Positions 21,132 through 25,975 of a stretch of 26,222 bases of DNA are shown piece by piece; within the stretch, counting starts at the first letter, position 1; each line of letters opens with the position of its first letter. The notes under the pieces were generated by a model. It saw only the letters and a list, made by a program, of their open reading frames with translations. It did no database searches and was not told where the DNA came from. The stretch spans positions 1-26,222 of IMG/VR virus record IMGVR_UViG_3300039448_000012; one strand, 5' to 3'. The DNA is from a virus. A program made the translations under genes and the position numbers.

Positions 21132-21606
21132 GGCACCCACCTTTCATAAAAGGGTGGCAGTGACGGGAGAACCCGCCTCTGGCGCCTGCCTGCGCCCCAG
21201 TGACTACACTTACCGGCCCATTAGGGTCCAATCGGACGCGCCGGGTCCGGTTTGCAGTGCAGCCTTTTTGTTCCGCTGTCCCGTGATGTTCAGCGTGAAA
21301 GACTCCCGGCGCGTGTTCGGAATTGGAAAAAGTGCCAGAGGCGCGCGATTGAGAATCACGAAACCCTGCAATTCTTGAAAACCGTGGGATGCGCGACAGG
21401 TGTAGAGACCTGCCGCGCGCATTCATCCCACACACCAAAGGAGAAGATGCAGGATGAAAACTGTTGTCTGAAACCCTTACATGGCTTGCGCTCGCGCAAC
21501 CTCTGGCAGATATTCCAGGCATTGAGAAAAGTTTTTGATTGCGGGCCGCACCTCGCACGCGCGACCCGCTACACCCCTTGCTTCGCAAACAAGAAAGGAG
21601 CGATCC
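21132..21606. other. 475-bp divergent noncoding region with a long hairpin
   Basis: No convincing full-length gene is present. A strong imperfect hairpin occupies 21384-21431. Its outer stem is GTGGGAT/ATCCCAC, and its inner stem GCGCG-a-CAGGT/ACCTG-c-CGCGC has a 6-nt GTAGAG loop and a 6-nt bulge on the right side. Just after it, AAAGGAG precedes an ATG at 21447 opening a 72-codon frame that overlaps the next gene in another phase. That frame lacks a protein-like pattern and I do not call it. Promoters for both flanking genes must lie here, but no clear sigma70 pair is visible. Confidence 0.6.
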
Positions 21607-22230
21607 TTGGAATTTTTGATTCAGAGCCGATCCAGCGGCAGCCAATACATCATCGGCGTATTTGAGGAAGACGGGAGGCCCGTCATGACTTGCACCTGTC
21701 CAGCAGGTGAAATGGGAAGTTTTTGCAAACACCGCATCGCGTTGATTGAGGGCGACTTTTCCGAAGTGATCCGCTCCACACACGACCCAGTAGAGATTGG
21801 GCCCGCTTTGGCCGGTTCTGAACTCAGCGCATCCATTTCGAGAATGCGAGACCAAGAACAGGCCATCAAAGCAGCCCAGGCTGAACTGAGAGGCATAAAG
21901 AAGGGCGTCGCCCGCCTGATGAATGGGAGCGACCGCTTTGCCCACACTTATCAGCTGTCCATTGATGCAAGGCCTGAAACGGTAGAAGACCAGATAGGCA
22001 CTGGTCCGCTTGCAGGCACGACCATTGTGTTTACCGGGAAGCTTGAAAAAATGACGCGTGACGAAGCCAAAACCAGTGCCGAACAAAACGGCGCCAAGGT
22101 TTCTGGGTCCGTTTCCCGGAGTACAGATATCCTGGTGGCGGGCCCTGGCGCGGGGTCGAAAGAGCAAAAGGCTAGAGACTTCGGCGCTAAGGTGGTCACT
22201 GAAAGCGAGTACCTTGCTTTGATTGACTAG
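21607..22230 (+). CDS. SWIM zinc finger and BRCT domain protein
   Basis: The 207-residue protein starts at TTG (21607), with AAAGGAG placed 6 nt upstream. Residues about 1-50 form a SWIM zinc finger with Cys29-x-Cys31 and Cys40-x-His42 (CTCPAG, FCKH). Residues about 85-110 are a short coiled coil. Residues about 131-207 are a BRCT domain of the DNA-ligase type: [42 protein letters not shown]-like spacing and [12 protein letters not shown]. Both modules bind DNA or DNA-damage proteins. The gene is reversed against the early operon and ends 8 nt before a convergent gene. It has no catalytic domain. Confidence 0.88.
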
Positions 22231-22562: not shown

Positions 22563-22771
22563 GCTGCACCCTCCGCTGCAGGGACTGGCGCGGGATTGTC
22601 AGCCATATAGGCGCGGAGCCGTTCGGCCACGTCCAAAGTGCAACTCTTGCCATCTTTCAGGCGGTGATAAAGTCGACTGTTCCCAACGCCTCGGCTGGTA
22701 ACCGTCGCAGGAGCGACTCCCCTCGAAGAGGCAAAAGTCTCAATCTCCAATATCAGCTGTGCAGTAATCAT
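22559..22771 (-). CDS. Cro-like small regulator
   Basis: This 70-residue protein is divergent to the repressor gene. Its pattern (LILEIETFASSRGVAPATVTSRGVGNSRLYHRLKDGKSCTLDVAERLRAYM) resembles small one-domain regulators of alphaproteobacterial phages with 'A..T..R...N....RL..G.....T.ERVRAFM' spacing. It should compete with the repressor at the shared operators and shift expression to the lytic path. There is no Shine-Dalgarno sequence before the ATG, and the predicted promoter places the transcript start at or next to the ATG, so the mRNA is probably leaderless. Confidence 0.78.
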   Translation of the reverse strand: MITAQLILEIETFASSRGVAPATVTSRGVGNSRLYHRLKDGKSCTLDVAERLRAYMADNPAPVPAAEGAA

Positions 22772-22776
22772 GCAGT

Positions 22777-22806
22777 TATATAGGGATTATTATCCCCACA
22801 AAGCAA
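22777..22806 (-). promoter_or_regulatory. Predicted leftward early promoter (PR-like)
   Basis: On the minus strand TTGCTT (22806-22801), an 18-nt spacer and TATATA (22782-22777) form a sigma70-type promoter for the Cro-like gene. Operator 1 fills the spacer exactly, so bound repressor would block polymerase. The +1 would be at about 22770, at the ATG. Confidence 0.65.
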
Positions 22807-22854
22807 GGGACAATCGTCTCCTATCCCCGGCAGCCAACAGGGAATATTGTCACC
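22782..22854. promoter_or_regulatory. Three repressor operators between Cro-like and repressor genes
   Basis: Three 16-bp sites share the pattern RGGGA-N6-TCNCC: 22782-22797 (AGGGA-TTATTA-TCCCC), 22806-22821 (AGGGA-CAATCG-TCTCC) and 22839-22854 (AGGGA-ATATTG-TCACC). The spacers are A/T-rich. Start-to-start distances are 24 and 33 bp. Site 1 is within the leftward promoter. Site 3 is within the probable -10 region of the repressor promoter, as in lambda OR3. Confidence 0.8.
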
Positions 22855-22856
22855 CC

Positions 22857-23492
22857 ATGCCTTTGACATTCAGAGAAGCGCTCAACGGAGCAATGGCCGC
22901 ATCAGGACTCTCGATGCGAAAACTAGCTGAAAAGGCTGGCGTTTCTTACGAGCAGCTGAAGAAAATCAATCAGGGAAAGACGCAAAGCACCAATGCAGAA
23001 GATGCTCTAAGACTTGCCGCCGCTACTGGCGTTTCACTTGAAAGATTCATGGCAGGCGACTTCCAAGTAACCTCAACCATTGCAATCGCTGGCAAAGTCG
23101 GTGCCGGTGCCCAGGTTCCCCTGTTTGACGCCTATGAAAAAGGCGACGGCCCCCAGGTCGAATGCCCGCCGGGCCTCTCTCCGCACGGCATTGTCGCGGT
23201 CGAGGTCGAGGGGGATAGCATGGAGCCGGTCTATTCTGCCGGGGATCTGCTGTTCTACACCCGCAACGGACACGACGCCGTGCCATCGGATGACATTGGT
23301 CACCGCTGCGTTTGTGAAGACGAAGACGGCATGGGCTGGGTCAAACAGATCAAACCCGGCGACGAACCTGGGCTTTTTCACCTCATCTCCCTAAACCCCG
23401 GCGCCAGCAACATCTGGAATGTAAAACTAAAGTGGGCAGCGCGTGTGCAGCTCCATTGGCCCGCCGAACTAGCGAAAAAGCATGATTCTTGA
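22857..23492 (+). CDS. CI-like repressor with S24/LexA peptidase domain
   Basis: The 211-residue protein keeps the prophage silent. Residues about 4-65 are an XRE helix-turn-helix (FREALNGAMAASGLSMRKLAEKAGVSYEQLKKINQGKTQ). A likely self-cleavage Ala78-Gly79 in IAIAGKVGAG follows. The peptidase domain has VEVEGDSMEP (Ser121) and GWVKQIKP (Lys163), the catalytic dyad. This predicts RecA-stimulated cleavage and SOS induction. An upstream in-frame ATG would place the start inside the operators, so the ATG at 22857 is used. No ribosome binding site precedes it; a leaderless message like lambda PRM is likely. Confidence 0.93.
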   Translation: MPLTFREALNGAMAASGLSMRKLAEKAGVSYEQLKKINQGKTQSTNAEDALRLAAATGVSLERFMAGDFQVTSTIAIAGKVGAGAQVPLFDAYEKGDGPQVECPPGLSPHGIVAVEVEGDSMEPVYSAGDLLFYTRNGHDAVPSDDIGHRCVCEDEDGMGWVKQIKPGDEPGLFHLISLNPGASNIWNVKLKWAARVQLHWPAELAKKHDS

Positions 23493-23852: not shown

Positions 23853-24153
23853 GGGTGACAACACGATCATAGATATAACCGACAGGTTCACCAAAAGAAC
23901 GGATGAGACCTTGAAAGGCGGCAGCGGAGGTGGCACATTTGGCCCTATGGAAGCACGTGTATCACGAATTGAAGACAAGATGGACCGCGTGGAGGATCGA
24001 CTGACCACCATCGAGGTAACGCTCGCGCGCATTGATGCCAAGCTTGACAGCAAGGTAGACTACAAGTGGCTGACCATTTACGTTCTTGGCATCGCTGCCG
24101 TCATCATGCGCAGCGAGATTGCTTCTCTATTTACATCTGGAGCCGCACCTTGA
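23845..24153 (+). CDS. Tail-anchored coiled-coil membrane protein (rex position)
   Basis: The 102-residue protein has a Gly-rich segment (LKGGSGGGTFG) at about residues 23-33. A coiled coil with heptads follows (MEARVSRIEDKMDRVEDRLTTIEVTLARIDAKLDSK, about 35-70), and then one C-terminal transmembrane helix (WLTIYVLGIAAVIMR, about 75-90). The N-terminus should face the cytoplasm. It overlaps the upstream gene by 8 nt and the downstream gene by 4 nt. Pattern and context suggest a membrane complex made in the lysogen, possibly for superinfection exclusion. I do not recognise a named family. Confidence 0.78.
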   Translation: MSKGDNTIIDITDRFTKRTDETLKGGSGGGTFGPMEARVSRIEDKMDRVEDRLTTIEVTLARIDAKLDSKVDYKWLTIYVLGIAAVIMRSEIASLFTSGAAP

Positions 24154-24528: not shown

Positions 24529-24912
24529 CTAGCAGGCCCCAGCTTGCTGCGCGCCATAGGTGGCTTGGCTCTTGGTATATTGCTCTCCGGCAGAGGATGA
24601 CAGCTGGTCGATCAGCCCTTTGCACGAGAATCCCATCATCTCCAAGTATTGCCTAGCTGAAAGAACCGCTTGGGCATTCCAATCTACATTCAGGCTATCC
24701 ACCGCAACTGTAGCATCAGCGATATCATACCCTTCTCCGGCAGAGGACGAGAGCTGAAAAATAAGTCCCTTCCGTGAAAAGGCCGTGAAGTTCAGATAGG
24801 CCTCTGCAGATCTGACAGCATTTCGCTGCGGGCCAGTCAGGCTTTGTGCAGATGCGATAGGTGCGCTCAAAATCGCGCAGGCCAAGACGGCTACAGTCGT
24901 GAAATTCTTCAT
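24529..24912 (-). CDS. Ltp-type secreted protein, probable superinfection exclusion factor
   Basis: This 127-residue protein starts with a signal peptide (VAVLACAILSAPIASA, cleavage near residue 22). Two copies of a ~45-residue Ltp repeat follow: AVRSAEAYLNFTAFSRKGLIFQLSSSAGEGY and AVLSARQYLEMMGFSCKGLIDQLSSSAGEQY. The first Ltp protein, from phage TP-J34, blocks DNA injection of other phages at the cell surface. Related repeat proteins occur widely in prophages. It lies on the opposite strand between the repressor operon terminator and the second early promoter. The early Cys12 might be a lipid anchor, but the site is unusually near the N-terminus. Both repeats show clear DNA-level similarity. 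Confidence 0.85.
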   Translation of the reverse strand: MKNFTTVAVLACAILSAPIASAQSLTGPQRNAVRSAEAYLNFTAFSRKGLIFQLSSSAGEGYDIADATVAVDSLNVDWNAQAVLSARQYLEMMGFSCKGLIDQLSSSAGEQYTKSQATYGAQQAGAC

Positions 24913-25109: not shown

Positions 25110-25162
25110 GGGGACTATTTTCCCCTAAATATGTTGACAGGGATTTTTGTCCCCTGTATGAC
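25110..25162 (+). promoter_or_regulatory. Rightward early promoter (PL-like) with two repressor operators
   Basis: TTGACA (25134-25139), 17-nt spacer and TATGAC (25157-25162) form a promoter 28 nt upstream of the gene at 25190. Two copies of the operator pattern from 22782-22854 are present: 25110-25125 (GGGGA-CTATTT-TCCCC) and 25139-25154 (AGGGA-TTTTTG-TCCCC). The second fills the spacer. The rest of the 277-bp gap 24913-25189 shows only a TTCCT-GTG-AGGAA dyad at 24952-24964. Confidence 0.8.
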
Positions 25163-25189
25163 TATCCTCATCAACCGATGGAGGATTGA

Positions 25190-25459
25190 ATGAACGACAT
25201 TACCAAAACCGCCCGCCAGATCGTCAGCGCGCCCCAGGATCACCTGCACGATACCAGCCTGTTTTCCGCAGCCTGGGCCACCATGAAGGCCGCTCGTGGC
25301 CAGGGCTTTGACCCGCAGCGCCTGCATCCCCAGCACCTGATTGGCCGCCCTACGCCAGCACCCGAGCCGATTGGCCAGACCCTGAACCGGGTTGGTGAAA
25401 CTGTGCGCAGCTATGCCGCCAAACAAGGCTACAAGCTCCCACGCCACCATGCAGCGTGA
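25190..25459 (+). CDS. First gene of the rightward early operon, unknown
   Basis: The 89-residue protein is preceded by GGAGG with 6-nt spacing. It contains HDTSLFSAAWATMKAARGQGFD, then a proline-rich middle (GRPTPAPEP) and a C-terminal helix (TLNRVGETVRSYAAKQGYKLP). It has no recognised domain. It is controlled by the repressor-covered promoter at 25134-25162, so it should be expressed on induction, in the position of lambda N. I see no arginine-rich RNA-binding motif, so an N-type antiterminator is not supported by sequence. Confidence 0.78.
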   Translation: MNDITKTARQIVSAPQDHLHDTSLFSAAWATMKAARGQGFDPQRLHPQHLIGRPTPAPEPIGQTLNRVGETVRSYAAKQGYKLPRHHAA

Positions 25460-25480
25460 TCGAAACCCGCAGGCCAGCCA

Positions 25481-25624
25481 GCGGGCACCCCCGCCCGCCA
25501 TATAGTCCCTAGGTCAGCGTCAGGAGGACGACGCCGGTCAACCTTTCGGAATTCCGCGCCCTCATCCCGACTGCGCGGAGTAGCGCGGGCGGTTCAGTCC
25601 TCCTCCAAAGTTCACCGCCCGCGC
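25481..25624 (+). ncRNA. Structured RNA region with complementary hairpin loops
   Basis: This 186-bp gap (25460-25645) carries several perfect stems. They are GCGGGC/GCCCGC (25481-25498), GCGTC/GACGC (25517-25534, loop AGGAGGAC), CCGCGC/GCGCGG (25554-25578) and GCGCGGGCGGT/ACCGCCCGCGC (25583-25624). The 20-nt loop of the last stem contains GTCCTCCT (25597-25604), fully complementary to the 8-nt loop AGGAGGAC (25522-25529). No start codon follows the AGGAGG at normal distance, so it is not an ordinary ribosome binding site. No T-run makes it a terminator. The RNA nature is inferred. Confidence 0.5.
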
Positions 25625-25645: not shown

Positions 25646-25975
25646 ATGTCAGCACAAACACTGGCCATCGCTGCTGCAGAACTTGCAGCCACCCAAGGCC
25701 TTTATAAAATTCTGAAATTTCAGGATCTCGGCGGCACTCTGACCCCGCCCAGCGATGATCCATCCGATTGGTGGGAACCGGAAAACCTCACCCACCGCGC
25801 CGAACTGCACGGCATCATGGCGAGCGCCGACAACTTCTTTGACGCCATCACCGCCTGGACCAAAGCCGCCCATCAGGCCAGCGCCCGCAATCGCCGCGCC
25901 ACAGATGGTCGCCCAGATTGCCCCTACAACGGCCAGGGTCTCGCCCCCGGCGCAACCCCCAACCCAGCAGCGTGA
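25646..25975 (+). CDS. Unknown early-operon protein
   Basis: The 109-residue protein begins at an ATG preceded by AAGG with 7-nt spacing. It has a helical N-terminus (SAQTLAIAAAELAATQGLYKIL), an acidic aromatic stretch (SDDPSDWWEPE), a second helical part (RAELHGIMASADNFFDAITAWTKAAHQAS), and a Pro/Gly-rich tail. No family was recognised. It follows the structured RNA region and precedes a 12-codon frame, and belongs to the same rightward operon by orientation. Confidence 0.68.
   Translation: MSAQTLAIAAAELAATQGLYKILKFQDLGGTLTPPSDDPSDWWEPENLTHRAELHGIMASADNFFDAITAWTKAAHQASARNRRATDGRPDCPYNGQGLAPGATPNPAA

Follow-up and report, generated by a model that had tools for sequence, protein, structure and literature searches.

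A conserved three-hairpin RNA in a phage early operon, coupled to a candidate RAPP-type arrest-peptide ORF and to the ribosome-binding site of the first gene

Organization of the early operon

The window, that is, the whole stretch of DNA analysed here, is a virus record of 26,222 bases. It comes from a siphovirus-like phage, whose terminase, portal and capsid-type ORFs lie on the minus strand. At its right end the plus strand carries an early operon with a promoter, a leader, gene1, an RNA element and gene2. The features around the RNA element are the following.

22770-23492: CI-like repressor
25110-25125 and 25140-25154: operator-like repeats GGGGACTATTTTCCCC and GGGATTTTTGTCCCC, around the promoter
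25134-25162, plus strand: likely early promoter TTGACA-N17-TATGAC, read by eye
25169-25189, plus strand: leader CATCAACCGATGGAGGATTGA, a small 5' hairpin (CAUC-AACC-GAUG) and then the ribosome-binding site (RBS); proposed target of the H3 loop described below
25180-25188, plus strand: gene1 RBS GGAGGATTG
25190-25459, plus strand: gene1, first gene of the early operon, an 89-aa orphan basic helical protein
25646-25975, plus strand: gene2, 109 aa; the gene at this position varies among phages

The promoter is not called by the rule of the automatic promoter scan, its -10 element ending in C. Gene1 has no match in Pfam (E up to 1) or PHROG and no DUF1127 domain. Its AlphaFold model is of low confidence (pLDDT 70.8, pTM 0.39), and a fold search with this model gives no match with E below 0.001. 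Gene2 has no family match in Pfam or PHROG either.

Two further ORFs of the window deserve mention. The minus-strand ORF at 24529-24912 adjoins the immunity region and encodes a lipoprotein that is secreted and contains two repeats of the Ltp type (PF07553, E 4.7e-31; PHROG 'superinfection exclusion'). The plus-strand ORF at 21535-22230, before the repressor, encodes a protein of 231 aa that is similar, over its C-terminal half, to the C-terminal portion (probably BRCT) of NAD-dependent DNA ligases; an N-terminus similar to its own is seen at another locus, L191.

We compared 46 loci: the window and 45 relatives in prophages of marine roseobacters and on contigs of phages. The relatives were found by protein searches with gene1 and gene2 and by a DNA pattern in IMG/VR contigs and roseobacter-group genomes, and some by a covariance model. 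The host genera of the relatives include Phaeobacter, Pseudophaeobacter, Leisingera, Tritonibacter and Epibacterium, among others. Gene1 was aligned for 42 relatives; its mean major-base fraction is 0.67. The region from -70 to -25 is variable among the relatives, with a mean major-base fraction of 0.50, and the 45 bases upstream of the leader are unrelated among the phages. The leader CATCAACCGATGGAGGATTGAATG hardly varies, in contrast to the operators. This constancy under freely exchanged repressor and operator modules suggests what has to stay the same when these phages swap their immunity regions.

A conserved RNA of three hairpins

Between gene1 and gene2 the transcript is predicted to form three hairpins.

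25517-25534, plus strand: H1, stem GCGTC (25517-25521) and GACGC (25530-25534), loop AGGAGGAC (25522-25529)
25552-25580 (about), plus strand: H2, the middle hairpin, stem CCGCGC/GCGCGG, pyrimidine-rich loop
25583-25624, plus strand: H3, 11-bp GC-rich stem GCGCGGGCGGT (25583-25593) and ACCGCCCGCGC (25614-25624), 20-nt loop (25594-25613)
25597-25604: H3 loop segment GTCCTCCT, complementary to the H1 loop
25593-25603: H3 segment TTCAGTCCTCC, complementary to the gene1 RBS at 25180-25190

H1, H2 and H3 occupy the same place of the early operon in 46 loci. The 201-nt region of the window folds better than all 200 of its shuffles (z -2.99), and H3 is present in both the minimum free energy (MFE) and the centroid structure. 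H1 as drawn is missing from the MFE structure of the window, in which its GGAGG is paired elsewhere; we nevertheless accept H1 because the relatives support its pairs. In an alignment of 42 rows, 8 of the 9 H1 pairs are changed on both sides, with 72% of cells paired. The corresponding counts are 3 of 7 pairs (97% of cells paired) for H2 and 4 of 10 (99.8% of stem cells) for H3. None of 500 shuffles reaches the real covariation of the three stems, and the signal collapses on sliding. The stem sequences are free to change wholesale. G-U pairs outnumber A-C cells in the stems by 68 to 22 (31 to 3 in H2 alone), which argues that the RNA is the plus-strand transcript.

At the gathering threshold, no Rfam family is found in the window and eight relatives. 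On this comparative evidence the three hairpins represent a conserved RNA family that is new to Rfam; it is coupled to the RBS of the first gene and to a candidate arrest-peptide ORF of the RAPP type, which the phage encodes. A tRNA mimic with a T-loop, read from GGTTCAATCC, was considered and rejected, as the stem does not fit.

Pairing between the loops of H1 and H3

Direct reading confirms the two hairpins and the exact 8-nt loop complementarity described in the initial annotation: AGGAGGAC and GTCCTCCT are exact reverse complements placed 67 nt apart. The chance that an 8-nt loop finds such a match within a given 20-nt loop is about 13 in 65,536. Complementarity of the two loops recurs in 46 of 46 loci with 6-12 contiguous pairs. 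The loop-loop helix consists of five invariant pairs and two compensated ones, at positions 17:107 (U-A in 21 rows, A-U in 10) and 24:100 (U-A in 24, C-G in 14, U-G in 2).

Class A, the type of the window with AGGAGGAC and GTCCTCCT, forms one clade in the gene1 tree, and the loop-loop covariation lies mainly between two clades, class A and class B. The loop difference between these classes is therefore probably one event; the U-G pairs of L195 and L196 are another step. Hence the kissing pairing of H1 and H3, judged from the aligned loops, is likely and stays short of proof, since the compensation may go back to a single evolutionary event. The initial annotation had predicted a kissing-loop RNA, to be judged by covariation among related prophages. 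Both of its stems keep pairing through changes, and the support for the loops themselves, from the two compensated positions, is weaker.

The H3 loop matches the leader of gene1

The RBS part of the leader is 100% conserved in 45 loci, compared with 0.67 in the gene1 codons after it. In 395 Rhodobacteraceae genomes the leader motif has 9 sites, all before gene1; 7 of them are accompanied by the RNA, and the other 2 lie on contigs that end inside gene1.

The H3 loop is antisense to the gene1 RBS in 46 of 46 loci, with 9-13 contiguous pairs, and in 43 of these loci the run with the leader is at least as long as that with H1. At least 11 pairs with the leader are formed by 74% of the real loops and by 5% of the loops with shuffled flanks. 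When the flanks are randomised and the H1-paired bases kept fixed, the H3:leader energies give p = 0.004 in class A and p = 0.02-0.03 in classes B and C. The conserved UCA of the H3 loop finds no partner in the class A H1 and pairs with the leader. Drift of H1 in class C (L252) has left it 6 pairs with H3, and the leader keeps 9 perfect pairs. L211 and L282 have a leader match that is longer on its other side. A coarse target scan of the window in steps of 3 ranks the leader first for the H3 loop. A one-base scan with bulges allowed puts a coding site of the window near 23990 slightly ahead of the leader (-19.5 versus -18.4), so that our claim is limited to the contiguous runs.

The initial annotation regarded the H1 loop as a Shine-Dalgarno (SD) sequence without a gene, and this was right: the loop copies the gene1 RBS. 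Its anti-SD reading of the H3 loop also holds, but the loop is tuned to one specific RBS, that of gene1. As a whole that interpretation caught part of the module, and lacked H2, the arrest-peptide ORF and the leader target.

An anti-SD loop may also act in trans. A small RNA processed from H1-H3 would then act on several mRNAs, the mode of action assumed for CcsR/cuckoo RNAs, and gene1 would be its RNA-binding helper. In favour of this, the RNA is compact and folds on its own, and the ccaF1-CcsR locus has a similar order of a small basic protein gene and an RNA with CCUCC-type loops (PMC10253847). We consider such a trans-acting RNA quite unlikely, as the only good targets of the H3 loop that recur in every locus are the leader and H1. 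Moreover, neither an own promoter nor an intrinsic terminator of the H1-H3 RNA was found, and gene1 lacks a DUF1127 match. The kinship with CcsR/cuckoo RNAs suggested in the initial annotation does not hold up: the CcsR1 model (RF02791) scores 16.2 bits with a gathering cut-off of 65.3, this match is limited to the class of the window, and a class B member has none. The ar14 model (RF02344) is likewise rejected, at 16.5 against 58.8 bits.

A small ORF with an arrest core precedes H1

An unannotated ORF of 18-42 codons is found between gene1 and H1 in 41 of 46 loci.

25449-25505, plus strand: small ORF encoding MQRDRNPQASQRAPPPAI and a stop, candidate RAPP-type arrest-peptide ORF; its ATG lies 11 nt before the gene1 end
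25482-25493, plus strand: RAPP codons CGG GCA CCC CCG
25488-25490: predicted P-site codon CCC, with the edge of a stalled ribosome expected at about 25503-25505 (stall position from PMC10987492 and PMC7897499)

The ORF starts 11 nt before the gene1 end in 40 of 45 loci and in pP66_i (L282), and the spacer between gene1 and H1 is kept at about 110 nt. Every copy encodes Arg-Ala/Gly-Pro-Pro (RAPP or RGPP), first in 40 of 40 and then in L282, found later. The motif is followed by 1-9 residues in the 40 ORFs and by 13 in L282, and the N-terminal parts differ freely. Across the 40 loci the codons vary synonymously (CGG/AGG/CGC for Arg, GCA/GCT/GCG/GCC for Ala, CCC/CCA/CCG for Pro), which argues that selection keeps the peptide and not the RNA alone. 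A fourth hairpin H0 (GGGCNCCNCCC, 68 nt past the gene1 stop) looked conserved at first; it is the RAPP coding sequence, kept as peptide and not as RNA.

The codon of the third RAPP residue lies 36-39 nt from the GAGGA core of H1 in 36 of 41 loci, and the stop codon of the ORF falls anywhere from 12 to 26 nt before that core (40 loci). In pP66_i, where this stop codon is missing, the ORF continues into the H1 loop and ends there; the RAPP-H1 distance is still 36. The ORF is absent in L015, L185, L188, L193 and L238, which keep the RNA; the arrest peptide thus appears dispensable and the RNA able to work alone. In two pairs of these loci, L015/L193 and L185/L188, 26-34 nt separate the gene1 stop from the downstream H1 core.

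R-A/G-P-P is the ribosome-arrest core of ApdA and ApdP (PMC7897499, PMC10987492). Of the arrest cores, RAPP and RGPP give the most robust arrest, which resists EF-P, and proteomes otherwise avoid them (PMC12992588). At the stall the third residue occupies the P site (PMC10987492), and toeprints lie 15-17 nt past the first nucleotide of its codon (PMC7897499). Most of the tested RAPP-bearing proteins of E. coli and B. subtilis did not stall (PMC10987492). Among the titles and abstracts covered by our literature search, none describes an RAPP-type arrest peptide of a phage, and the word 'phage' is unmentioned in the arrest-peptide papers PMC12992588, PMC10987492 and PMC7897499.

The end of H3 lies 21 nt before the start of gene2. 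Arrest peptides usually control the downstream gene, and in a SecM-like arrangement a stall at RAPP would refold H1, H2 and H3 and so switch gene2 and the rest of the early operon, by translation or transcription, the match of H3 to the gene1 RBS being secondary. That the RAPP-H1 distance is fixed favours an effect of the stall on H1. In L007 (2890-2920) the gene2 RBS (AGAGGATTGCACATG) also complements the H3 loop, over 10 nt; this match is found in L007 only, and class-wide pairing of H3 with the gene2 RBS is rejected. We consider control of this kind unlikely, since H3 does not sequester the gene2 RBS in the window, gene2 differs among phages, and the complementarity to the leader is left unexplained.

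The position behind the early promoter and the first gene, together with the strong and conserved structure, would also suit a put- or nut-like RNA, which modifies RNA polymerase for early-operon antitermination while the loop complementarity merely stabilises the fold. This is improbable, as it explains neither the RAPP conservation and the fixed RAPP-H1 distance nor the H3-leader match, and the stem sequences change wholesale. No curated match to HK022 put or lambda nut is found.

Proposed mechanism

Among these possibilities, we tentatively prefer to read the early-operon RNA as a cis-acting riboregulatory module, probably a negative-feedback switch on translation. The phage probably tunes its own early genes through a stalled ribosome and an RNA. 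The components of the module are well supported by the sequence comparison. From them we infer the mechanism, namely stalling, restart on the small ORF, and exchange of pairing partners and its direction; the signal and the direction of the stall effect are guesses.

Step 1: Ribosomes leaving gene1 would start again on the small ORF and stall there, with RA/GP in the P site. The edge of the stalled ribosome would lie just short of the 5' arm of H1, about 22 nt upstream of its GAGGA core.

Step 2: During the stall H1 would fold, kiss H3 and hold it. The gene1 RBS would be free and gene1 on. H1 would thus serve as a decoy copy of the RBS, with the arrest peptide as a sensor or timer.

Step 3: With read-through the ribosome would run to or into H1, and the terminating ribosome would reach the 5' arm, so that H1 opens. 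The freed H3 would pair with the gene1 RBS and shut its translation, possibly inviting RNase III.

We therefore propose that stalling keeps gene1 on and read-through turns it off, given that the stalled edge would be short of the H1 arm and read-through would enter it. Export sensing is less likely than a constitutive pause or the sensing of ribosome or cell state, because a peptide of this length would not emerge from the tunnel.

Several observations stand against the feedback reading. H1 is close to H3 and should usually win over the distant leader. Further points are the five loci without the ORF, the loop-loop compensation, which is in essence a single change between clades, the bulged coding site, the RNA copy without leader or gene1 in L228, the RAPP proteins that do not stall (PMC10987492) and the very short peptides.

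It is possible, with some doubt, that a kissing-loop RNA is gated by a phage-encoded RAPP/RGPP arrest peptide, with the true RBS and its decoy copy competing for one antisense loop. This would be a self-contained translational feedback switch of a kind not described before. If true, RAPP/RGPP arrest, feedback pairing of a 3' part with an RBS and a built-in decoy hairpin, so far seen apart, would be joined in one compact phage module. RAPP arrest would then be used by phages and outside protein localisation, and the module would offer a natural, easily assayed RNA switch in about 46 sequence variants.

Relation to known systems

As in ApdA, ApdP and the RQH-family arrest peptides, R-A/G-P-P lies near the C-terminus of a small ORF with a poorly conserved N-terminus, upstream of a gene on the same strand (PMC7897499, PMC10987492, PMC12992588). 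ApdA and ApdP have 80-200 aa and an N-terminal topogenic signal, and lie upstream of sec/yidC (PMC7897499), whereas the peptides here have 18-42 aa, no apparent targeting signal and a place in a phage early operon. By size and place the small ORF does not belong to the ApdA/ApdP monitoring substrates (PMC7897499). It also differs from the known RAPP/RGPP peptides in that it overlaps the preceding gene and is followed at a fixed distance by a conserved RNA structure. For ApcA, ApdA and ApdP no SD-sequestering hairpin is predicted (PMC7897499). SecM-secA also has a stall site just upstream of an mRNA hairpin; unlike there, the hairpin here is predicted to kiss a second one that matches the RBS of the previous gene, and the SD of the next gene is not sequestered.

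In S. aureus, pairing of a UCC-rich motif of the 3' UTR with the SD of its own mRNA controls icaR (PMC3868564). A downstream motif complementary to the SD of its own gene is present here in 46 of 46 loci; in contrast to icaR, it lies in a hairpin loop, with a decoy hairpin 67 nt away, behind the arrest-peptide ORF. In OppZ and CarZ, autoregulatory sRNAs that derive from 3' UTRs, the 3' part of a transcript feeds back on its own operon by base pairing (PMC7398697), which is similar to our proposal, but here an intrinsic terminator was not found and there is no sign of a processed RNA or of a need for Hfq. CcsR/cuckoo RNAs with CcaF1 share the alphaproteobacterial order of a small basic protein gene and an RNA with CCUCC-type loops; here there is no Rfam-level match and no DUF1127 protein, and three hairpins contain a self-complementary pair of loops. 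No Rfam match to phage antisense RNAs of the C4/P4-CI type was found, as far as such RNAs have Rfam models.

Distribution of the module

The covariance model R1 finds 9 strong copies in 6 of 395 Rhodobacteraceae genomes, including the more divergent class C (L252, L237 and L238). Its weak matches (E above 0.002, the best being L239) are taken as chance. A scan of viral contigs with the pattern AGGAGGACGACGCNNG was too unspecific, and its matches were discarded. No DNA or protein match was found in annotated phages.

Distant gene1 relatives from other Rhodobacteraceae (L259-L268) have other leaders, and the H1-H3 element was not found with them; L268 at least lies behind an early-type promoter with operator-like repeats. 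L228 (Tritonibacter mobilis, reverse strand) is an RNA copy without leader or gene1 in front, rearranged or a remnant. The contig of L211 is labelled Nocardioides marinus and clusters with Leisingera in the gene1 tree, and probably comes from a contaminated assembly.

The circular 33.8-kb element pP66_i of Phaeobacter inhibens (L282, NZ_CP010714.1) carries capsid, portal and terminase genes. This 'plasmid' is a complete-looking phage element; the module spans the start of the record, and the small ORF and the RNA are unannotated. Epibacterium sp. Ofav1-8 has at least six copies of the module (L200, L201, L203, L204, L205 and L207), each with a different operator and promoter, and Pseudophaeobacter flagellatus has three. 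These multi-copy genomes hold co-resident prophages with one RNA and different immunity.
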